DNA of 64,000 nt from Haloplanus sp. CK5-1. Lineage in GTDB: Archaea > Halobacteriota > Halobacteria > Halobacteriales > Haloferacaceae. Made by a program: the position numbers and the translations under genes. How positions within the stretch are numbered: position 1 is the first letter of the stretch; every line of letters begins with the position of its first letter. The notes under the pieces are model-generated. The model made no database searches, was not told where the DNA came from, and worked only from the letters and a program-made list of their open reading frames with translations. The DNA lies in NCBI RefSeq assembly GCF_037201915.1, contig NZ_CP147505.1:2604001-2668000 (forward strand), written 5' to 3'. This document shows, one piece after another, positions 1-13,875 of the stretch.

Positions 1-2043
1 ATCGAATACGTCAGCATGCTCTTGAAGGAACTCTCGGAGATCATCATCGCCCTCCGTGCCTTCGACTAAGAGTGAGACGGTACCGGTGAGTAATTCCCGA
101 GCCGGGGTAGCCGCTGTCGCAACCGCGGGTTCGCTCTCGTCGCTTACAGCAAGCGTTTGGGCAAGAGTTCGAGCCCACTCGTTCGCAATCGCTCTGCTCG
201 CCTCCAAGGGATCCTCTGGTCCCACGAGAGCCTGAATGCGGTTAGACCAGTCTGCAGGAAACTGCTGATACGTCGTGAGGATCTCTGTCGCAGGAATTGG
301 GCGCAGCTCTGACTCAGCATGGTCCACTGATGAGGACTGTTCGAGTTGTCTTTGGATGGTGTGGTAGGCACTGTAGCCAGTGAGAATGTCAGCGTTCCAG
401 TGCAACAGTGTCTCGGCTGCCGACACCGGATTCGTTGAGGCTGTCGGGATACAATCGATCTCACGTAATCGCTCGAAGAGAGCTGTGTTGAACCACTGGA
501 GCAGTTCCGTCGGAGTCGATGGATCTGTGACCTCCACGTCCGGTTGCGAGGGGAGGAGAATCCAAGGATAGAGATCGCTGTAGTCGTTCGAGTTCTGGTG
601 TTGAGCTTCTGCTGTTTCTATCCCGACCGCTGAAATCAGATCGATGGCCTCTTCGAGGACAGCCTGATTATGATCTGAATTGTTTCGACTGAGATCCTTG
701 CGGTTGGTTTCGACCCTAAAGCGGCCGTGAAGACAGAAGGGGAAGGGGTTGTTTGACGTGTTTTGAATCGGATAGAAGAGGTACAACGGATAACTCTGAA
801 TCGGAGTTGTCTCGTGATCTTGGCTGTCCGGGAGTTTATTGACGAGTAGTCGGGTGCCGAAGTCACCCCCATCGTCGAACGCGAATTGATCAAATCCCCT
901 GACAGCGATCGGGTTTGAGTCGGACCCCTGATAGACAGCAACGCGAACGTCATCATGCGTCAGTTCGTCGTGAGTAACCGACTCCGATCGCTCACGGTCA
1001 ATCTCCCAATATTCGGCTGTTTCAACACCCCCGTTCCCACCGTGAATCCGTTCTAGGTGCAGTTCGTCGATATGACCGAGTTGAACCAGTGTTTCGGGCT
1101 GAAGCCCTGATTCATCATCAGCCGTTTGTGAGAGGTACTTCCAGATGCGTTCTGGCCGGGTTTCGATGTCGCCTTGATCTTCTTCCGGTTCCGGGATATC
1201 CCACGCCTCAAGCAGATCGCGCCAAGCATCGTCTCGATACCGAACGAAGACAGCTGTTCTGAATGGCTCCTCAACTGTGTGTCCGTATTCATCCGTCCCA
1301 ACATCCCGAAGGAGCGATGTCGCCCGTTGGACAATCGGGTCGGATTCCGTCTTTGACGCAGTCAGATCCACTGGAGCCGGGAAATTGAACAGCGGTAACT
1401 TTGAGAGGTCTTCACGAAGATCCGCGGACAGATCATTGGAGCCGGTCACCGATTGCTCCTGGAGGATGGCTGCGAGTTCTGTGTCTTTGATATCAGTGGT
1501 CAGCGTTTCGACATCGACATTATAGCCAAGACGAGTCAACAAGGACGCAATAAGATACGAGCGACTCAAACGAACCCCGAGAATATCCTCGGAATCCTCC
1601 TCTGGTCGGGTGTAGATCTCGAACGAATCGCCAGTAGCGAGAATCGATTTCAGCCCAACACCTTTGTGACCGATAGATTGATCATCATCTTCGTCGCCCT
1701 TCCCTGTCTCGCCAATCATCGTTACTGCGTTCTCGACCTGTGGATCAAAGAAATCGAATCGGCTGCCGGTGTTCGCCACCAACACCCCCTCGTCGTACAC
1801 CCCCACGTAGACTCGCCCGCTATCACGGTCACCCTCGCGGATCGCGTCACGGGCATTCTGCAGCAGCTCAAGGATCTCTCGTCCTTCGTGCCCGCCTGCT
1901 ATCTTGCGCTCAGCGTTACCGATGATGACCTTGTCACGAAGCGCATCGGCAACACGATCATCACCAGCCGCTTCATCAACATCTTCCAGAAAATCTCCCC
2001 ATCGGTTCCGCCAACGTTCGTAGAGATCGGATTCCGAAAGCAT
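1..2043 (-). CDS. Sacsin-like GHKL/HSP90-type ATPase (C-terminus cut by window edge)
   Basis: About 681 codons are visible, open all the way to base 1, so the protein is larger than seen. The N-terminus carries a Bergerat-fold ATP site: N-box EILELLQNARDA (E56, N63, D66), a G1-like DEG...VANTG (residues 84-93) and G2 box SIGHKGVGLKSIL (123-135). The spacing and wording match the prokaryotic 'sacsin N-terminal ATP-binding-like' family rather than histidine kinases: there is no HisKA upstream and a very long C-terminal part follows. The ATG at 2043 is chosen because an in-frame TGA lies 12 codons upstream with no other start. Known for the family: ATP-driven conformational change, often in large defence-associated proteins. 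Inferred: an ATP-dependent sensor or scaffold working with the divergent nuclease-helicase operon 270 bp away. The function of the C-terminal part is not recognisable. Confidence 0.8.
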   Translation of the reverse strand, partial: MLSESDLYERWRNRWGDFLEDVDEAAGDDRVADALRDKVIIGNAERKIAGGHEGREILELLQNARDAIREGDRDSGRVYVGVYDEGVLVANTGSRFDFFDPQVENAVTMIGETGKGDEDDDQSIGHKGVGLKSILATGDSFEIYTRPEEDSEDILGVRLSRSYLIASLLTRLGYNVDVETLTTDIKDTELAAILQEQSVTGSNDLSADLREDLSKLPLFNFPAPVDLTASKTESDPIVQRATSLLRDVGTDEYGHTVEEPFRTAVFVRYRDDAWRDLLEAWDIPEPEEDQGDIETRPERIWKYLSQTADDESGLQPETLVQLGHIDELHLERIHGGNGGVETAEYWEIDRERSESVTHDELTHDDVRVAVYQGSDSNPIAVRGFDQFAFDDGGDFGTRLLVNKLPDSQDHETTPIQSYPLYLFYPIQNTSNNPFPFCLHGRFRVETNRKDLSRNNSDHNQAVLEEAIDLISAVGIETAEAQHQNSNDYSDLYPWILLPSQPDVEVTDPSTPTELLQWFNTALFERLREIDCIPTASTNPVSAAETLLHWNADILTGYSAYHTIQRQLEQSSSVDHAESELRPIPATEILTTYQQFPADWSNRIQALVGPEDPLEASRAIANEWARTLAQTLAVSDESEPAVATAATPARELLTGTVSLLVEGTEGDDDLREFLQEHADVFD

Positions 2044-2312: not shown

Positions 2313-4376
2313 ATGACTGACTGGCGTTCCTTTGATGGCACACTACTCGAAGTCCCCTTCGGGTCAGAAACCGTTCAGTCGGTCGCTGTTGAACAGTACC
2401 GCGACATCCTCGTAGACCACGACCACGAGGACGTACTCGTCCTCACAGGCTCACCGACGAGTATGACGACGTTCAGGGAGGTGCTCGGCGACGAGTGTCC
2501 GGGCGCTGCGGTCCCGTATGTGACCTCGGTGATCGTCCACGCGACGGACGTTATCAACCGTACGGACGACCGGGCGATCCTCTCGGACGCGATGCGGCGG
2601 GAAATCATCCACAGGTTCCTGGCGGACCAGGAGTGGGACCACGAGTACTTTCAGCAGGCATCGGAACAAGAGTCCTTCATTAGTGATATTGCCGACTTGC
2701 TGGAGACCGCGACCTGGCAGAACGTCACGTTCGACACGACACCCGAACTCCTAGAAGTCGCCACAGTGCGTGACGAGTTCCATGCCTGGCTGGACGCCAA
2801 CGACCATTTAGAGCGTGGACAGATGGTCACGAAGGCGACTGAAATCCTCGCTGACCCGGACGAAGATGTGCTTGATGTTGATGCGGTGCTTGCCATCGAA
2901 TTCGAGGAATTCGTTGAGTCCGATCGTCGCTATCTACAGAACCTGGCCGACGGTCGAGACCTCGTCTGTATTGCGGAAACCGACGCCAGCATCAGGCGCA
3001 CGTGGACCGAGACAGGCCCGGTAACCGACCACGTCTCGTTTACCGACCATGAGACGGTTGACGCAACACCGCCGGCGACGCGCCCGGCAGCCACAGCCGC
3101 GTATTTCGCCCGGGATGAGGTACCTACTGACCCCGACACCGGGGACGTGCAGGTTCTCGTTGCGGAGACGGCTGATGACGAACTGGAGCGCATCGCCGAT
3201 GAGATCGAGCAGATCCGCGAGCAGCAGGACGTCGCATACGAGGACATCGCGGTCGCGTTGAAGTACAGTGGCGAGGCCGTCATCGAGGCGATGCAGGCGC
3301 TTGAACAGGCCGGCATCCCGACCGAATCGGCGACTGTCATCGGGTTCGGTGACGATCCAGCGATTCGTGAACTTCTTCAGGTGGTCTATACACTTGCGAG
3401 CGAAACCGAGCTGGACGCCGAAGATGCAGTAACGGTCGAGGATCCTGACCTCACAGACGAACTCCGGACAGCACTCGCCGAGATGGACCACCTCGGGGAA
3501 GCGGTTCGCAGATGGGCAAGTGAATCGGGGCTGAAAGAACGGGTCGCAGCTGATACGGCACCGCTCACCGCCCGCACCCGATTTTCGAACGTCCGCCGTG
3601 CGTTCAACATGGCTGATTTCCTCGAAGACACGGCGTTCATGGACGCGACGTGGGCCTCGCTCGCGGAGATGCTGACACGAGCCCACGAGTATGCACCCCA
3701 ACAGAACCAGACCAGTGCGATTGAGCGCGATGGCGGCGTCCGCGTGGACCACGTCCGAGCGCTCAAGAACGGCTCGTTCCGCGTCGTGTTCATTCCGCAG
3801 GTGACCGACGAACGGTACCCCGGCCAACCACAACTCAGCAGTCTGTTCCCGCAGGAACGGGTCACGCGTATGCCGGACTATCCCGGGGTCTCGCAGGTCG
3901 AGGCCGATGCTGTCACGGCCACGTTCACAACGGATTCGACAGCATCGAGCCGCCCGGTACGCCAGTATCACGCCGAGCACGCACGTAGGTTGCTCGCGGT
4001 CGGAGCCGCAAGTGCGACAGAACGCCTCTATGTGAGTCTGCACACCCACGAGGATACGGCACTCGACGAACGGGTCCAGCCGTCACGTTTCCTCGCGGAT
4101 GCGTACCGAGAGTGTCCATGGCTGACAGACGCAGACGAGGCACCGATCAACTCAGAACTCGCAGCCGAGAAGTTCCTCCTCTCACGGGTTGACAAGGCCC
4201 TCGCAGATGTCCGTCGTGCGAACAGTCAGGACGTGACTATCTCGCTCGATGATGTTGAAACCGACTTCGCCGAAATCCAGGCGTTACTCGCCGATAGTGG
4301 CGAGCGCGGTGAGCAACTTCGGGAGGCACTGCATGCACGGCTCGATTTCGCTGCCGGGAGGGTTCACCGTGAGTAA
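2313..4376 (+). CDS. AddB-like inactivated UvrD-family helicase subunit
   Basis: About 687 aa. There is no Walker A motif near the N-terminus, but the C-terminal half keeps UvrD/AddB-type signatures. GVRVDHVRALKNGSFRVVFI followed by TDERYPGQ corresponds to the 'V.V..h..KG..F..VfV...ERFP' region of motif V. HARRLLAVGAASATERLYVS corresponds to a motif VI region. This pattern fits a structural, non-hydrolysing helicase paralogue such as AddB or RexB, although the nuclease module is encoded separately downstream. ATG 2313 is preferred over GTG 2295 because it restores a typical MTDWRSF start. Its stop overlaps the next gene's GTG by 8 nt, so the two are translationally coupled. Inferred role: the scanning or DNA-holding partner of the active helicase encoded at 5289. 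The sequence is divergent, so the family name is moderately sure. Confidence 0.65.
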   Translation: MTDWRSFDGTLLEVPFGSETVQSVAVEQYRDILVDHDHEDVLVLTGSPTSMTTFREVLGDECPGAAVPYVTSVIVHATDVINRTDDRAILSDAMRREIIHRFLADQEWDHEYFQQASEQESFISDIADLLETATWQNVTFDTTPELLEVATVRDEFHAWLDANDHLERGQMVTKATEILADPDEDVLDVDAVLAIEFEEFVESDRRYLQNLADGRDLVCIAETDASIRRTWTETGPVTDHVSFTDHETVDATPPATRPAATAAYFARDEVPTDPDTGDVQVLVAETADDELERIADEIEQIREQQDVAYEDIAVALKYSGEAVIEAMQALEQAGIPTESATVIGFGDDPAIRELLQVVYTLASETELDAEDAVTVEDPDLTDELRTALAEMDHLGEAVRRWASESGLKERVAADTAPLTARTRFSNVRRAFNMADFLEDTAFMDATWASLAEMLTRAHEYAPQQNQTSAIERDGGVRVDHVRALKNGSFRVVFIPQVTDERYPGQPQLSSLFPQERVTRMPDYPGVSQVEADAVTATFTTDSTASSRPVRQYHAEHARRLLAVGAASATERLYVSLHTHEDTALDERVQPSRFLADAYRECPWLTDADEAPINSELAAEKFLLSRVDKALADVRRANSQDVTISLDDVETDFAEIQALLADSGERGEQLREALHARLDFAAGRVHRE

Positions 4377-5292
4377 CACCAACGACGATGGCACCGTGTA
4401 CTTGTCGCCATCACGGCTGGCGACGTATGCGGACTGTCAGCGGAAGTTCGACCACGACTACGTGAAAGACGTCTCGACGCCCGACCAGAATCGCCTCTAT
4501 CTCAATCAGGGGCTGGCGTATCATGAGACAATCGAGGCCGTCTGCGAGGCGACCGATCCTGACGACGATGCTGACGTGATTTATCGCCGCGCCATGGACG
4601 CTTTCGACGAGAAGTGGGAGGCCAACCTCGACCCCGATGAATACGAGACACGCGCCCACCAGGACTACCAACGTGCGGAGAACTGTGCGGCGATCGAGGC
4701 GTTCTTTGATCCTGAGGGTGGGGACGGGATTCGGCACGCTCGACGGTCAGTTGCTACCGAGAAATGGCTTGAATCCATCCATGATGGTCTCGGGCTGCAC
4801 GGGTACGCAGACAACGTCCTTCGGACTGAGGATGGCCTCCACATAATCGACTACAAACGCCGACTCAGCGGTATCATCACGTCCTACACGGCGAAATACC
4901 TCGAAGAACACCTGAATGGAGAAACGCACGAACCGGGACGGGTGAAGAATGCGTTCCAGACGGCCACCTACATCGAGGGCGTCAAGCAATCCAACCTGTA
5001 CGAGGAGGGGATGGACGTTCGGTTCACCTTCTACGCGCTGTTCTACGAGACGACCGCTGAGAGTACGCCAGATGGGTTCGAAATATCGGTTCGTGGACGG
5101 CCGCGAGAAACAACTGGTGTGTACGACGAATACTACGACACGATTTGGGGCCTCATCGAAACAGCCCACGAGGGTATCACGAGCGGTGCTCACGCGCCAG
5201 AGCCCTTCGAGTTGATCAACGAGGAAGCGTGTTCTGATTGTGACTACCGGGAGATGTGCCCTGAGTATCTCGCCGAGGAGGTGCGACGATGA
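4369..5292 (+). CDS. PD-(D/E)XK nuclease with Cas4/AddB-type Fe-S cysteines
   Basis: 307 aa from GTG 4369, which lies in an 8-nt overlap with the previous stop (GTGAGTAA). The start fits because the conserved fold begins at residue 10 with VYLSPSRLATYADCQRKF. A single cysteine at 23 plus C288, C291 and C297 (CSDCDYREMC) reproduce the C...CxxCx5C iron-sulfur staple of AddB and Cas4 nucleases. The catalytic core is visible as LHIIDYKRR with D161 and K163. Known for the family: metal-dependent DNA end resection. The domain normally forms the C-terminus of AddB; here it is a separate protein directly downstream of the AddB-like helicase, so the two probably act as one split subunit. ATGA overlap with the helicase gene behind it. 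Confidence 0.82.
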   Translation: MSNTNDDGTVYLSPSRLATYADCQRKFDHDYVKDVSTPDQNRLYLNQGLAYHETIEAVCEATDPDDDADVIYRRAMDAFDEKWEANLDPDEYETRAHQDYQRAENCAAIEAFFDPEGGDGIRHARRSVATEKWLESIHDGLGLHGYADNVLRTEDGLHIIDYKRRLSGIITSYTAKYLEEHLNGETHEPGRVKNAFQTATYIEGVKQSNLYEEGMDVRFTFYALFYETTAESTPDGFEISVRGRPRETTGVYDEYYDTIWGLIETAHEGITSGAHAPEPFELINEEACSDCDYREMCPEYLAEEVRR

Positions 5293-8200
5293 CTGACGAC
5301 GCGCCTGACTGGTTGCCGACCGTTGAGGACGAGGTCGATCCGGAGGATCAGCAAGAGGCTATCATCGATTCCGACGCGTACCCGATGCGCGTCCTCGCGG
5401 GGGCCGGGACTGGCAAGACGTTCACAATGGTCCGGAAGATTGAGCACCTGATCGACGAGCAGGGTGTGTCACCGGACCGGATCCTGGCGCTCACGTTCAC
5501 GAACAACGCTGCCGGGTCGATGCGAGAGAAACTCAACGCGAAACTCGGCACGGCAGGCTATGATATCGACGCGTATACCTATCACTCGATCTGTAACGAA
5601 CTCCTGACTGACTACGCCTATGAAGCCGGGATCGACCCGGACTTCGAGGTCGTCAGCGACGCCGAAAAGTACGCGATTGTTCTTGATGTCCTCGATAAAA
5701 TCGAGTACCGATGGGTGAAGCCCAACGTGTACGGCCCGGAGTTCCGTGGTAGCGGGGCGGCGTCGAAACTCCTGTCGTTCATCGGGACGATGAAACGCAG
5801 CGGTATCAGGCCCGACGAGATCGATGCGTTCCTCGGCCCGGCTGAGAAGCTCTATGAACTTGAAGACCTGCCGGGACGGATCGAAACAATAGCGAGCGAC
5901 CACTTGGGCGGCCGCTCGGTATCGTCGGTACTTGACGGGCTGCGAGACGTGCGAGCCGAGATTGCAGCTGAACGTGACGATCTTGGCGACAGCGAGGTCG
6001 AAGCCGCAGTCGTGGACTTTCTCGATCGGCTGGTCGCAGTGTGTGACGCATTCATCGCAGCCTTCGAGGCACACGAGGCGGGTGATCGGTCGCTGCCTGA
6101 AGATGCGCACAAGCTGCCAAAGTACCTGCTCGGGGGATACAGCAGCGGTGCACCGTCAGGGATTCCGAAGCTGAAGATGGAGTTGCCAGCGCATCTCGAC
6201 TCCTTCATCGATGAGTGCCTCACAGCACGCGATCTGGTTGCTGGCTACGCCGGCTACGAGCGCGAACTCGACGACCGGAATCTGATCGATTTTGATGGGC
6301 TCGTCGTGAAAACGGTCGATTTACTCACGGGCGAGGTTGGTGACGAGGTCGCCGACAGATGGGAGTACGTGTTCTGTGACGAGTTCCAGGATACTGACCG
6401 GCTCCAGTTCGACTTGGTCACGTCACTTGTCTCCGATGACCGGCTGTTCGTCGTCGGTGACGACGACCAAGCGATTTACGAGTGGCGCGGCGCTCGCGTT
6501 GCGAACATCACCACGGAGCTGACCGATGAGTTCGGCCCGTCGCTCACGGACAAACCGCTTGAAGAGAATTTCCGGTCACGCCAGCCGATCCTCGACCTCG
6601 CAAACGACCTGCTGACCCGGCTCGAAGAGCGCACCGATGGGAAGACGCTGACGCGCATCGACGAACCAGACTACGATGGGGACACAGTCGCAGTTATCGA
6701 CGAGGCCGAGGAGGAAGACGACCGGGCGCAGCAACTCGTGACAGTCACGCAGAATCTCCTGGCGGGGGCAGCCGATGAACTGGACAAGACCTACGACCGG
6801 GGTGACATCGCCGTGCTCGTCAGGAAAAATGACCATGCCGCGCCGCTGCTCGATGCCTTCGACCGGGCTGGCATCCCGTATCAGGTTGTCGGCGACCTAG
6901 CGACGGAATCGATCGGTGTTGGCACCGTCGTCGCCTACCTGAAGGCGCTGGCCCGGCCCGAAGAGGATGAGGTTAGCTGGAACCGTGTCCTGACGATGCG
7001 CTACCGGCTTACGGACGCTGATCTCCGTCGGCTCAACGACCACGATGACGATGAGGGTAGCCTGATTGAGGAGCTCCGCGAGGCCCCACTCTCGGAGTTC
7101 GAAGAGCCTGAACGTGTTCAAGAGGCGCGTCGGCACGCGACGCAGTTGCTGGAGATTCGGGACAGAGCCTCGCTTTCGCACCTGTTCAGCGAACTCAAGG
7201 ACGTAACGAATATCGAGTGGTATCTGAGCGAGCAAGAACGGCGTGACCTCGAACAACTCGATGAGGTTATCGACCAATATGGGCACACAGCCGTGCAGCC
7301 GCCGCTGACGAGCGAGTTCATCGAGTCACTCCAGCATTACGAGTCGCTGTTCGCCGAGAGCGGGTCATCACCGACCGACCAACCTGAGCTGGCCGACGAC
7401 GCCGTCAACGTCATGACCGTTCACAAAAGCAAAGGGCTGGATTTCCCGGTCGTGCTTATGCCGCGGCTCACGGCCGATGAGTGGGAACCGGGGTCGCGGA
7501 CGTACGACACATTGGAAGCCGGGCTCTCGGATGGCCCTACGGCTGCCTTCGATGAAGACTTCATCGCGCGAGACGCCGCGGAAACCCGTCGTGTACTCCA
7601 CGTCGGGGTTACCCGTGCTGAAGACATTCTCGTCCTCCAGGGTAGCCATGACGACGAAGAGGAAGACGGCGACGACGATTCGTCCGACACCCATCCGATC
7701 GCTACAACTGTCGATGACCTGTTGCCAACGCGTGTCCCGTGGCGACCCGGGAGAAACCACCTCCCGATCTGGCAGGATATCCACGACTGCCTTCCGCCCA
7801 AAGCATCGGACTGGACTGAGACGCTAGCCAACGAGCAGATTGGACAGGTCGGGGGTGCAGTCGAGTATCAGGACAACGATCTCTCGCCCGCAACTGCCCG
7901 CGAGCGCGTGCTTGAGTTCGCCTCGTCATCAGTCGATGGTCGCCTTTCTCCTGTAGGCGAACGACTGACCATCCAGGTCGAATCCCTTACGGGCCCGACG
8001 ACGGCAACGCCAGCTCTCTCACATAGCTACACGTCGCTGCAATCGTACGAAGAGTGTCCACGACAGCACTATCTCGACTACGTCGTCAACGCATATCCGG
8101 ACTATCGTGCCACTGGTGAGGACGACTCCGATGGCATCTCTCAGCGTGACATCGGGCTGCTGTTTCACGACACGGCAGAACAGGCGGCCAACGAAGGGAC

Positions 8201-8744
8201 AGTGGACCGAGAAGACTGGTACGAGATATGCGAGCGCCTTGCCAGTCAGCGCCGCGCCGATGATGCCCTCGACCCGGCGAAACAGTGTATCGACCGGTAT
8301 TTCAAACTGGAATTGAGTGCCTACGACATCATCGACGCGGAGCGGGAATTCGAACTGGATATCGACGGTCACGAACTCATCGGGTTCATCGACGCCGTCT
8401 ACCGGACGCCGGATGACGACTTACTGGTTATCGATTACAAGGCGACCGAGCGATACCGCGATCTTGGGGACGACAAGCAACTGCCGATCTATCTGTTAGC
8501 TTGCCGTGATTTGTACGATGAGCCGGTGAGGCAGGCGGGCTATGCCTACGTCGGCGATATCGGCCCTACAGTCGAGACGCGCACGTTCAGCGAGACAGAG
8601 TTGCAGGCTGTCAAAGACGACGTCACGACGGCGATGAACCGGATTGTTGAGTTCTCGTTCAGCGAGTATTCGGCCGGCGATCATTGTCGGTGGTGTCAGC
8701 ACAATCAGCTGCCGTGTGCACCTGATAACTTGCAGATCGACTGA
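5289..8744 (+). CDS. AddA-like UvrD/PcrA helicase with C-terminal PD-(D/E)XK Fe-S nuclease
   Basis: 1151 aa, SF1A helicase with every core motif: Walker A AGAGTGKT (37-44), motif II DEFQD (364-368), motif III VGDDDQAIYEWRGA (from 389), motif IV EENFRSR, motif V VNVMTVHKSKGLDF (from 706) and motif VI ETRRVLHVGVTRAED (from 765). A nuclease domain starts near residue 913 (SYTSLQSYEECPRQ, C923), with catalytic VIDYKATE (D1049, K1051) and closing cysteines C1133, C1136 and C1143 of an AddB/Cas4-type 4Fe-4S cluster. Known role of AddAB-type machines: ATP-driven unwinding and degradation of DNA ends. In bacterial AddA the nuclease lacks the Fe-S cluster, so a cluster-bearing module here is notable. 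It overlaps the upstream nuclease gene by ATGA, completing a three-gene operon. Expected to act in the cytoplasm on double-strand ends or foreign DNA. Confidence 0.9.
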   Translation: MTDDAPDWLPTVEDEVDPEDQQEAIIDSDAYPMRVLAGAGTGKTFTMVRKIEHLIDEQGVSPDRILALTFTNNAAGSMREKLNAKLGTAGYDIDAYTYHSICNELLTDYAYEAGIDPDFEVVSDAEKYAIVLDVLDKIEYRWVKPNVYGPEFRGSGAASKLLSFIGTMKRSGIRPDEIDAFLGPAEKLYELEDLPGRIETIASDHLGGRSVSSVLDGLRDVRAEIAAERDDLGDSEVEAAVVDFLDRLVAVCDAFIAAFEAHEAGDRSLPEDAHKLPKYLLGGYSSGAPSGIPKLKMELPAHLDSFIDECLTARDLVAGYAGYERELDDRNLIDFDGLVVKTVDLLTGEVGDEVADRWEYVFCDEFQDTDRLQFDLVTSLVSDDRLFVVGDDDQAIYEWRGARVANITTELTDEFGPSLTDKPLEENFRSRQPILDLANDLLTRLEERTDGKTLTRIDEPDYDGDTVAVIDEAEEEDDRAQQLVTVTQNLLAGAADELDKTYDRGDIAVLVRKNDHAAPLLDAFDRAGIPYQVVGDLATESIGVGTVVAYLKALARPEEDEVSWNRVLTMRYRLTDADLRRLNDHDDDEGSLIEELREAPLSEFEEPERVQEARRHATQLLEIRDRASLSHLFSELKDVTNIEWYLSEQERRDLEQLDEVIDQYGHTAVQPPLTSEFIESLQHYESLFAESGSSPTDQPELADDAVNVMTVHKSKGLDFPVVLMPRLTADEWEPGSRTYDTLEAGLSDGPTAAFDEDFIARDAAETRRVLHVGVTRAEDILVLQGSHDDEEEDGDDDSSDTHPIATTVDDLLPTRVPWRPGRNHLPIWQDIHDCLPPKASDWTETLANEQIGQVGGAVEYQDNDLSPATARERVLEFASSSVDGRLSPVGERLTIQVESLTGPTTATPALSHSYTSLQSYEECPRQHYLDYVVNAYPDYRATGEDDSDGISQRDIGLLFHDTAEQAANEGTVDREDWYEICERLASQRRADDALDPAKQCIDRYFKLELSAYDIIDAEREFELDIDGHELIGFIDAVYRTPDDDLLVIDYKATERYRDLGDDKQLPIYLLACRDLYDEPVRQAGYAYVGDIGPTVETRTFSETELQAVKDDVTTAMNRIVEFSFSEYSAGDHCRWCQHNQLPCAPDNLQID

Positions 8745-8767: not shown

Positions 8768-9805
8768 TCACTCACCTTTCAGTTCCTCGTACGATTCGAC
8801 GATCGAGAGATCTCCCTCCAACTTCGGTTTGAGTTTCGGGCTGCGCGCATCGAGTTTGAGGCGCTCGTGTTGCCAGTCGAGTTCGTCTTTCCCGCGCCAG
8901 ACACCGTAGACGGTTACACTCGGCACTTCGATGATGCCGAACACGACCGCCAGCATGTAGAGGAGGATCTCGATCTCTCGCCAGCTTGCTGTCGCCGTGT
9001 CCGGGAATTCCGCGGGGAAATCGACCCGCTGGCCAAGCATCCGGTGGGCTTGTGCCCGCTCAACGAAGTTCCGGTCGTTGCTGAAAAGGAGGATGTCACT
9101 CCGGTACTCGCGGTCGTACTCGTCGTACGCATCGATGATCGCCTCATCTCCCTCCGCACTCTGAATCTCGATTGCCTGCTCGATGTCTCGAATCCGTCGG
9201 TAGGTGAGCAGGCCGAGCCGACCGAGACGAGCAGAGCCGAGTGGCTGGTTCCAGTATTCCTGGTAGACATCACCGAAGGCATCGACGAACGGATCCGTTT
9301 CGTGGCACTTGTAGTCCCAATCCAACTCGTCACGGACCCCCGTTGCAAGTACGAACCCGTTGACATAGCCGATCCCGCTGTCGGGATCGTGGAGACCGAG
9401 GACGCGGTCGATTCGCCACGGTAGAAGGTTCGTATCGAAGCCGGCAAACACCGGGGGGTGTCCAGCCATGAGGTCGGGATCGCCGTACCGATCCAGAAAC
9501 GTCTCGATTTCGTCTTGGTTGGCGGGTTCGAGAATTCCGCTTGCCAGCACTGCCTTACGAAACGCATCTGCATCGGGGAGGTCCTCGAAGACACGCTCGG
9601 GATACTGTCGCCCGATATCCTGCCGTGTAGCGGTATAGTCGTCGAGCTCCGTCAGGAATCGGATCGTACACCCATCGTATTCGTCGAGTTCGACCCGTAG
9701 TAGTTCCCCGATTTCACTAGACGGATGTTCCACGACGAATTCTTCATCACCGCGATCGTACAACCGATTCAGCAGGACCGTCAGGTGCTGGCGTTGGATT
9801 CGCAT
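8768..9805 (-). CDS. PIN-like nuclease, CARF-gene partner
   Basis: 345 aa. After a roughly 115-residue N-terminal domain of unknown fold, a PIN-like acidic core appears: VFAGFDTNLLPW (D124), an acidic pair in VRDELDW (D159/E160), D237 in RSDILLFSNDRNF and D244 of the SNDRNF motif that resembles the VapC 'TnDrdF' end. This is an RNase-type metal site; the substrate is unknown. The ATG shares one base with the stop of the upstream CARF gene (TAATG), so the pair should be made together. It ends only 23 bp from the convergent AddA-like gene. Inferred: an effector switched by the CARF protein. The PIN assignment rests on motif spacing and has not been checked by structure. Confidence 0.6.
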   Translation of the reverse strand: MRIQRQHLTVLLNRLYDRGDEEFVVEHPSSEIGELLRVELDEYDGCTIRFLTELDDYTATRQDIGRQYPERVFEDLPDADAFRKAVLASGILEPANQDEIETFLDRYGDPDLMAGHPPVFAGFDTNLLPWRIDRVLGLHDPDSGIGYVNGFVLATGVRDELDWDYKCHETDPFVDAFGDVYQEYWNQPLGSARLGRLGLLTYRRIRDIEQAIEIQSAEGDEAIIDAYDEYDREYRSDILLFSNDRNFVERAQAHRMLGQRVDFPAEFPDTATASWREIEILLYMLAVVFGIIEVPSVTVYGVWRGKDELDWQHERLKLDARSPKLKPKLEGDLSIVESYEELKGE

Positions 9806-10278
9806 TAGATCACCTCGGTGAAGTCGATGAGATTGATCGCCGTCCGCGGAATGGTGGGATACGTCTCCCCGAAGTACGCCTCGGTCTCAACGTGCGAGTA
9901 ATAGAGGTGATCGACATTGCGTTTGATACCGGCCTGGAAACTGATTACTGACCAAAACCGCCGCCCCGGAGAAATATCGACCGCGATGTCGGCGTTCGCG
10001 TCATCACCAGTCTCAATTGCCGACTGGAGGTACGCGATGATTGCCTCGAAATCGGTCTCCTCCTCGATTGTTTCGACGGTGATCGACGGTTCCTCGCCAC
10101 CCTGTGAAGTGACAACCGTCTTCATCAGCGATGTCGCAGCGTCCGTGACGTCATCGATAATCGGGTTATTGAGGACATAGATGTCAGTTGGAACATAGCC
10201 GTCGTGACACGCAGCGATGAGCGGATTAACGACTGGAGGGATGCTTGTCGATCCGTTCGTAATCCAGACCCGGTCCAT
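9805..10278 (-). CDS. Single-domain CARF-like protein (cyclic oligoadenylate sensor type)
   Basis: 157 aa Rossmann-like protein with the two CARF hallmarks. The first strand-loop is ITNGSTSIPPVVNPLIAAC (residues 6-24). A second loop, AVDISPGRRFWSVISFQAG (99-117), is followed by VDHLYYSHV, the form seen in Csm6/Csx1-type and related CARF sensors. Known for the family: binding of cyclic or linear oligoadenylates and control of a linked effector. No HTH or HEPN domain is present, so the effector must be another protein. The coupled PIN-like gene immediately downstream is the obvious candidate. No cas10, csm/cmr gene or CRISPR array lies in this window, so the source of any signal is unknown. Confidence 0.7.
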   Translation of the reverse strand: MDRVWITNGSTSIPPVVNPLIAACHDGYVPTDIYVLNNPIIDDVTDAATSLMKTVVTSQGGEEPSITVETIEEETDFEAIIAYLQSAIETGDDANADIAVDISPGRRFWSVISFQAGIKRNVDHLYYSHVETEAYFGETYPTIPRTAINLIDFTEVI

Positions 10279-12733: not shown

Positions 12734-12807
12734 GCGAATGCGTCCCGAGGGAAACTTCTGGACCAATCACACCGCTCCAGCTCGACAGGCGCTCCCCGCG
12801 GCAGGGC

Positions 12808-12832
12808 CCGGGTTCGACTCCCGGGCGGGCCA
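12808..12832 (+). other. tRNA 3'-end fragment (T-arm plus acceptor), possible att remnant
   Basis: CCGGG-TTCGACT-CCCGG is a perfect T-arm with the invariant TTCRA loop. It is followed by a seven-base acceptor half and an A discriminator (GCGGGCC A). No matching D-arm, anticodon arm or 5' acceptor half is seen upstream, so only the 3' end is present. tRNA 3' ends are copied when tyrosine integrases insert elements, which suggests an old attachment site inside the island. The parent tRNA is not in this window. Confidence 0.45.
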
Positions 12833-12865
12833 TCAGGCCGGCGGAGATCCCGGCTCAAAACAACT

Positions 12866-13800: not shown

Positions 13801-13875
13801 TGGGCGCTGCAGGATTTGAACCCGCGACAATCTGGTCCGAAGCCAGACACTCTGTCCAGGCTGAGCTAAGCGCCC
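13801..13875 (-). tRNA. tRNA-Arg (anticodon UCG)
   Basis: Reading the minus strand gives a full 75-nt cloverleaf: acceptor GGGCGCT, D-arm, anticodon stem TCTGG with loop CTTCGGA (anticodon TCG, for CGA codons), T-arm with TTCAAAT loop, acceptor return ending in discriminator A; CCA is not encoded. No intron. Its 3' end points left toward the accessory region (1-13.8 kb), while conserved chromosomal genes begin about 240 bp to its right, so it is the natural boundary and likely integration site of the island. Confidence 0.95.

Follow-up and report, generated by a model that had tools for sequence, protein, structure and literature searches.

What kind of DNA-end enzyme do three overlapping genes of a haloarchaeal chromosome encode, and does it serve defence or repair? 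Long-range resection and degradation of archaeal DNA ends are, to our knowledge, poorly known outside HerA-NurA. The genes, here called B, N and A, lie in a stretch of 64,000 nucleotides (nt) (the window; positions 2,604,001 to 2,668,000 of contig NZ_CP147505.1) from the 3.24-Mb chromosome of Haloplanus sp. CK5-1, and an initial annotation had described them as an archaeal AddAB-like complex split into three genes with two iron-sulphur (Fe-S) nuclease modules. The same B-N-A arrangement was found again in about 100 haloarchaeal loci, which fall into two clades. We give a probability of about 0.6 to the full statement that the trio is an AddAB-like DNA-end machine serving defence in clade I, to which the window trio belongs, and repair in clade II. 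Taken singly, the AddAB-like machine is very likely and the defence role fairly likely.

Three genes inherited as one unit

The open reading frames (ORFs) and the overlaps between them lie where the initial annotation had placed them. The trio and its key sites, with lengths in amino acids (aa), are:

2313..4376, plus strand: B, AddB/RecC-like superfamily 1 (SF1) helicase-fold subunit, 687 aa, without nuclease
4369..5292, plus strand: N, free AddB-type PD-(D/E)XK nuclease, 307 aa, GTG start
5289..8744, plus strand: A, UvrD-family SF1A motor with a C-terminal Fe-S PD-(D/E)XK nuclease, 1151 aa
4369..4376, plus strand: B/N overlap of 8 nt, from ORF coordinates, conserved among relatives
5289..5292, plus strand: N/A overlap of 4 nt (ATGA), from ORF coordinates, conserved among relatives
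2448..2471, plus strand: lost Walker A site in B, residues 46-53, GSPTSMTT, no Lys
5397..5420, plus strand: intact Walker A site of A, AGAGTGKT, residues 37-44
8055..8057, plus strand: cluster cysteine C923 of A, with C1133, C1136 and C1143 at 8685-8717

Among the haloarchaeal loci compared, the gene order is always B-N-A wherever a locus has enough DNA, and neighbouring genes normally overlap by 4 or 8 nt. Such overlaps fit translational coupling; the stoichiometric production once read from them is not established by them. Pairwise distances of the B, N and A proteins from 68 loci correlate at 0.97-0.99, far above shuffled distances (whose correlation does not exceed 0.16 across all loci or 0.78 inside one clade), so the trio is inherited together as one unit. 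All eight cysteines named for the two clusters are present and, in alignments, invariant: C923/C1133/C1136/C1143 of A in 38 of 38 rows, C288/C291/C297 of N in 40 of 40 and C23 of N in 39 of 40, where the single row without it comes from a shortened gene call that leaves this column empty. The clusters of N and A would be occupied by iron. Constant order, overlaps, invariant cysteines and distance correlations together rule out spurious ORFs or chance.

Build and descent of the subunits

B had been read as an AddB-like helicase without a nuclease. Pfam finds UvrD_C (1.1e-6) and a weak ADDB_N in it, and no nuclease domain. Its AlphaFold model (predicted local distance difference test, pLDDT, 82) has AddB as top Foldseek match (4cei_B, E 1.1e-22). 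By VIA-align, UvrD chains score above AddB and AdnA, with Z 32, but over 496 residues; AddB (Z 25.8 over 611) and AdnA (Z 24.0 over 562) cover more of the model, to residue 680-687, including the C-terminal part. A helicase fold nearest to AddB, UvrD and AdnA is thereby supported at the level of the model, and the AddB likeness and the missing nuclease both stand. Activity is another matter: since the Walker A lysine is missing in B and in all relatives examined, B is probably no working helicase, and without this site it is conserved over its full length.

The free nuclease described after B is borne out by a PDDEXK_1 match in N (3.5e-20), which in the window has the catalytic residues H52, D148, D161 and K163. 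The N profile gave no match to sequences of the PDB, and the comparison was made by fold instead: AdnA and AddB have the nuclease domains most similar to the model (pLDDT 93), with Cas4 and Exo5 less close, which supports an Fe-S nuclease of AddB/AdnA type. A solo Cas4 is excluded by its score (21 bits against a cut-off of 65) and by the fold comparison. Neither cas1 nor cas2 is among the scanned neighbours of the window trio, where CARF families were matched. In a profile comparison AddB columns 21-654 are covered by B and columns 712-1029 of the same profile by N. Because they fit consecutive stretches of one AddB, B and N would be AddB in two pieces, and because they match it side by side the trio can be expected to work like AddAB.

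A combines UvrD-helicase, UvrD_C and PDDEXK_1 domains; its helicase motifs, AGAGTGKT and DEFQDTD included, and its nuclease residues (H960, D1035, D1049, K1051) are intact. A search of the PDB with the A nuclease alone gave no useful match. The label AddA-like did not survive a phylogeny: a bipartition supported at 98/98 (97/98 with fewer rows) separates AddA and RecB from trio A, UvrD, UvrD-Cas4 and AdnAB. Trio A forms one clade of its own (100/100, with three methanogen UvrD-Cas4 fusions in the tree), and the AdnAB node is only weakly placed. B and N fall on the same side as AddB in a quick tree with long branches and dead motors (SH-aLRT 99). NCBIfam cut-offs for addA and addB are missed (A 141 bits against 707.65; B 15.4 against 903.7); this is a weak test, as canonical archaeal AddA misses its cut-off too, at about 300 bits. 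Gabija GajB was rejected as an identity for A: the PADLOC GajB matches come from the common UvrD motor, and no GajA was found among the scanned proteins.

How far, then, is the trio an AddAB? Like the Bacillus-type enzyme it has one SF1 motor with a nuclease and a helicase-like subunit with an Fe-S nuclease, and B likewise comes before A. In AddAB, however, the nuclease is fused to AddB, whereas in the trio a gene of its own, overlapping its neighbours, encodes it at every sufficiently long locus, and the AddAB motor belongs to the AddA+RecB clade, outside which A falls. For these two reasons the trio, as far as its sequences tell, is AddAB-like in build and strictly not AddAB. Canonical two-gene AddAB occurs in 36 of 195 haloarchaeal genomes (for example Halobacterium salinarum pHS3, OE_RS12980/OE_RS12975) and in methanogens too; methanogen and Halobacterium AddA lack the cluster motif that trio A has. 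The accompanying statement that only AddB carries the cluster in bacterial AddAB is not universal. In the two-gene AddAB of a Deinococcus sp. NW-56 plasmid (L177 in our set of loci) both subunits have the motif, and cluster motifs in two nucleases are therefore not unique to the trio. This plasmid AddAB is surrounded by WYL, McrC and BrxL (BREX) genes.

In the tree actinobacterial AdnAB shares the UvrD side with trio A, and the AdnA nuclease is structurally nearest to N. Nocardia AdnA and AdnB both have Walker A and fused nucleases, whereas trio B has neither, and the cluster motif occurs only in Nocardia AdnA, not in AdnB. UvrD-Cas4 fusions of the pfam12705 branch share the domain order of A, a UvrD motor followed by an Fe-S nuclease (Hudaiberdiev et al. 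2017, PMC5704561), with a profile similarity to A slightly above that of AddA (663 against 641); an AddB-like partner is not described for them in the part of that paper available to us, whereas trio A has B and N in every complete locus. Walker-less, ATPase-dead B recalls RecC of RecBCD; a RecD-like second motor is absent from the trio operon, and RecB and RecC have no Fe-S motif.

We propose that B, N and A would form one DNA-end-dependent helicase-nuclease of AddAB/AdnAB type. A would be the sole ATP-driven motor, moving 3'-5' as an SF1A enzyme, and its nuclease would cut the tracked strand, a polarity taken over from AddAB, AdnAB and RecBCD. B, ATPase-dead and similar to RecC and AddB, would be the scaffold on which the duplex is split and channelled. 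N would be the AddB nuclease as its own chain, its fold held by the Fe-S staple, docking on B and cutting the other strand. The three proteins might instead act separately, A as an ordinary UvrD-Cas4-like repair helicase, N as a solo Cas4-like nuclease and B as a decayed pseudo-helicase. A alone does have all motor and nuclease motifs, and UvrD-Cas4 fusions stand without such partners at other loci (PMC5704561). Gene overlaps, co-inheritance, the conservation of B over its full length without Walker A, and the span of B plus N over one AddB from end to end all argue against separate action, which we consider very improbable.

Two clades and their neighbours

Counted by B over both clades, the trio occurs in 58 of 195 sampled Halobacteriales genomes. 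It was confirmed in 94 stretches of named genomes, all haloarchaeal, and 79 loci form the comparison set; 16 plasmid records with the trio are likewise all haloarchaeal. B matched none of 50,697 phage records, and a virus-borne module was rejected on that basis. Clade I is patchy and carried on plasmids and islands, and most genomes of its families do not have it. Clade II makes the trio near-core in what we take to be the family Natrialbaceae, where 98 of 111 good genomes have a B of either clade, which length and score assign to clade II in almost every case. Both clades coexist in some genomes.

The clades also differ in N. Its catalytic residues H52, D148, D161 and K163 are kept in 19 of 19 clade I sequences, whereas in clade II H52, D161 and K163 are lost in 18 of 18, with D148 and the four cysteines kept in all. 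The initial reading of two nucleases thus applies to clade I, and clade II has a dead N nuclease that retains its cysteines. Such an N calls to mind RecC, whose nuclease domain is inactive (PMC1185551). Clade II N would keep its structural cluster only, like that RecC domain, in an enzyme that probably resects DNA ends for repair. Its setting is one of housekeeping genes, with UvrA in 16 of 35 loci and CBS-domain, folate-type and prolyl-tRNA synthetase genes.

Could the trio be a pure double-strand-break resection enzyme in both clades, the clade I islands reflecting plasmid carriage only? It would then give haloarchaea a long-range resection motor that they seem to lack; a Haloferax volcanii review names only Mre11-Rad50 for resection, and no AddAB (PMC7776575). 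The near-core standing of clade II near uvrA speaks for this, as does one trio on a Natrinema zhouii plasmid (L180), directly behind genes annotated as DNA repair exonuclease and AAA ATPase, Mre11/Rad50-like by that annotation, with SIR2 nearby. But clade I is missing from most genomes of its families, several genomes carry both clades, and clade I repeatedly adjoins Argonaute-AgaP, CARF-PIN, TmtA, BREX-5, Mrr and methyltransferase genes. We hold repair in both clades to be unlikely. In clade I the trio would instead degrade linear or broken invader DNA.

One of these associations could make the trio a dedicated accessory of one system. APAP is defined as a two-gene system of a haloarchaeal Argonaute and the AgaP PLD protein (Cheng et al. 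2024, PMC11442185), and the long Argonaute and PLD protein genes upstream of many clade I trios look, from their sequences, like APAP systems. Of 41 named clade I loci, 12 have an Argonaute and 17 an AgaP-like PLD protein beside the trio. Where the genes are packed most closely, Argonaute, PLD, B, N and A follow one another on the same strand and the gap from PLD to B has a median of 9 bp; the Argonaute near a clade I trio matches the PADLOC pAgo profile at E = 0. A second trio in the genome of the window (L032, C1:2374000-2392500; B 58% identical to window B) has an intact AgaP-like PLD, a PDC-S27-type ATPase and a broken Argonaute. Cheng et al. mention just a helicase-encoding gene near some ago-agaP operons (PMC11442185), and elsewhere, in E. 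coli, the guide DNAs of Argonautes are shaped by RecBCD, while AddAB and TtAgo co-precipitate (PMC10269773). As an APAP accessory the trio would unwind and shred invader DNA for guides or clear products, and its other sites would be remnants after Argonaute loss. Most clade I loci, however, are without Argonaute, none is among the recurrent neighbours of clade II, and Argonaute and AgaP PLD were not found within 39 kb around the window locus; a purely accessory role is distinctly improbable.

Further clade I neighbours are TmtA, a type IV Mrr endonuclease, an N6-methylase, a PDC-S27 ATPase and BREX-5 with an E1-like protein. On a Halorarius halobius plasmid (L179) the trio, BREX-5 genes and an E1-like/ThiF cluster adjoin. 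In our preferred reading the clade I machine would be a shared engine of defence islands with varying partners (Argonaute-AgaP, CARF/CARF-PIN, BREX, TmtA, restriction enzymes), and it may supply guides to Argonaute.

Several points weigh against an AddAB-like defence machine. Judged by the tree, A is not an AddA by descent, and the B and N profiles fit methanogen UvrD-Cas4 fusions as well as, or slightly above, AddB (B 144 against 131; N 92 against 84); on these data B and N could derive from an AddB that was split while its motor was replaced, or from a UvrD-Cas4 protein duplicated independently. Neighbours in an island need not act together, and repair alone could account for the enzyme.

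The window island and its CARF pair

The defence context, the most telling evidence for function, lies outside the coordinates of the initial annotation. The window trio sits in a gene-poor island of low G+C content (53-63% against about 68% for the chromosome) and is preceded there by a TmtA-like gene, an HNH nuclease gene and a transposase. The features around the trio are:

1..426, minus strand: 5' end of a TmtA-like defence gene that exits the window leftward, 1462 aa (L072:15039-19427)
8768..9805, minus strand: CARF-PIN protein, 345 aa, PADLOC CARF_m1--CARF_PIN, 1.9e-38
9805..10278, minus strand: stand-alone CARF protein, 157 aa, PADLOC CARF_m1--CARF, 1.4e-58
13801..13875, minus strand: tRNA-Arg(TCG), at the edge between the low-GC island and the chromosome of about 68% G+C

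The TmtA-like gene misses about 428 N-terminal profile positions and is apparently truncated or frameshifted. No direct repeat of the tRNA-Arg end that could mark an att site was found within 83 kb. A sequence like a tRNA 3' end, GGTTCGACTCCCGGGCGGGCCA, lies inside the island at about 12805-12834 without an ARAGORN call and is possibly an integration scar.

The CARF-PIN gene stands tail to tail with A, their stop codons 23 nt apart, and overlaps the CARF gene start to stop. CARF-PIN has 22 solid matches in the 195 genomes, 13 of them near an AddAB-type locus: the trio within 10 kb in 5, two-gene AddAB within about 12 kb in 8. The eight two-gene neighbourhoods were confirmed at sequence level, and the other links come from match positions (linked loci: window 8768-10278; L186-L193; L037, L040, L056). 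Since by our own estimate about 1% per match would be expected by chance (at most a few loci per 3.4-Mb genome), CARF-PIN goes with AddAB-type enzymes of either architecture; a literature search of limited journal coverage found no paper stating this link. A second CARF/CARF-PIN pair in the same genome (L198, C1:1584569-1585591) is linked to no AddAB-type locus. Two other pairs (L194, L197) stand close to weak AddA-like matches that perhaps represent another divergent type of helicase-nuclease.

Type III CRISPR was considered as the source of a CARF-PIN signal and set aside. No Cas10 match in the genome of the window exceeds the cut-off, with no Cmr2 match and a Csm1 match of just 19 bits, and cyclic oligoadenylate from such a system is therefore unlikely to be the signal. 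Retrons guard RecBCD, and the CARF/CARF-PIN pair might comparably guard the trio, killing or stalling the cell once a virus blocks it, with no need for type III CRISPR. An unlikely extension would make the trio the common engine by which a modular haloarchaeal immunity processes DNA, producing single-strand fragments that arm a neighbouring Argonaute while the CARF/CARF-PIN pair guards the engine.

Archaeal defence probably uses the trio as a common engine for degrading DNA. With a split AddAB-like enzyme near-core in one haloarchaeal family and acting elsewhere as a mobile module of defence, archaeal DNA-end processing would become testable in genetically tractable haloarchaea. Clade II would repeat the RecC-type loss of a nuclease with its structure kept, here in a split gene, and an apparently CRISPR-independent CARF-PIN pair would be tied to RecBCD-type enzymes. 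Argonaute-PLD systems, for their part, gain a candidate partner for unwinding and guide making.

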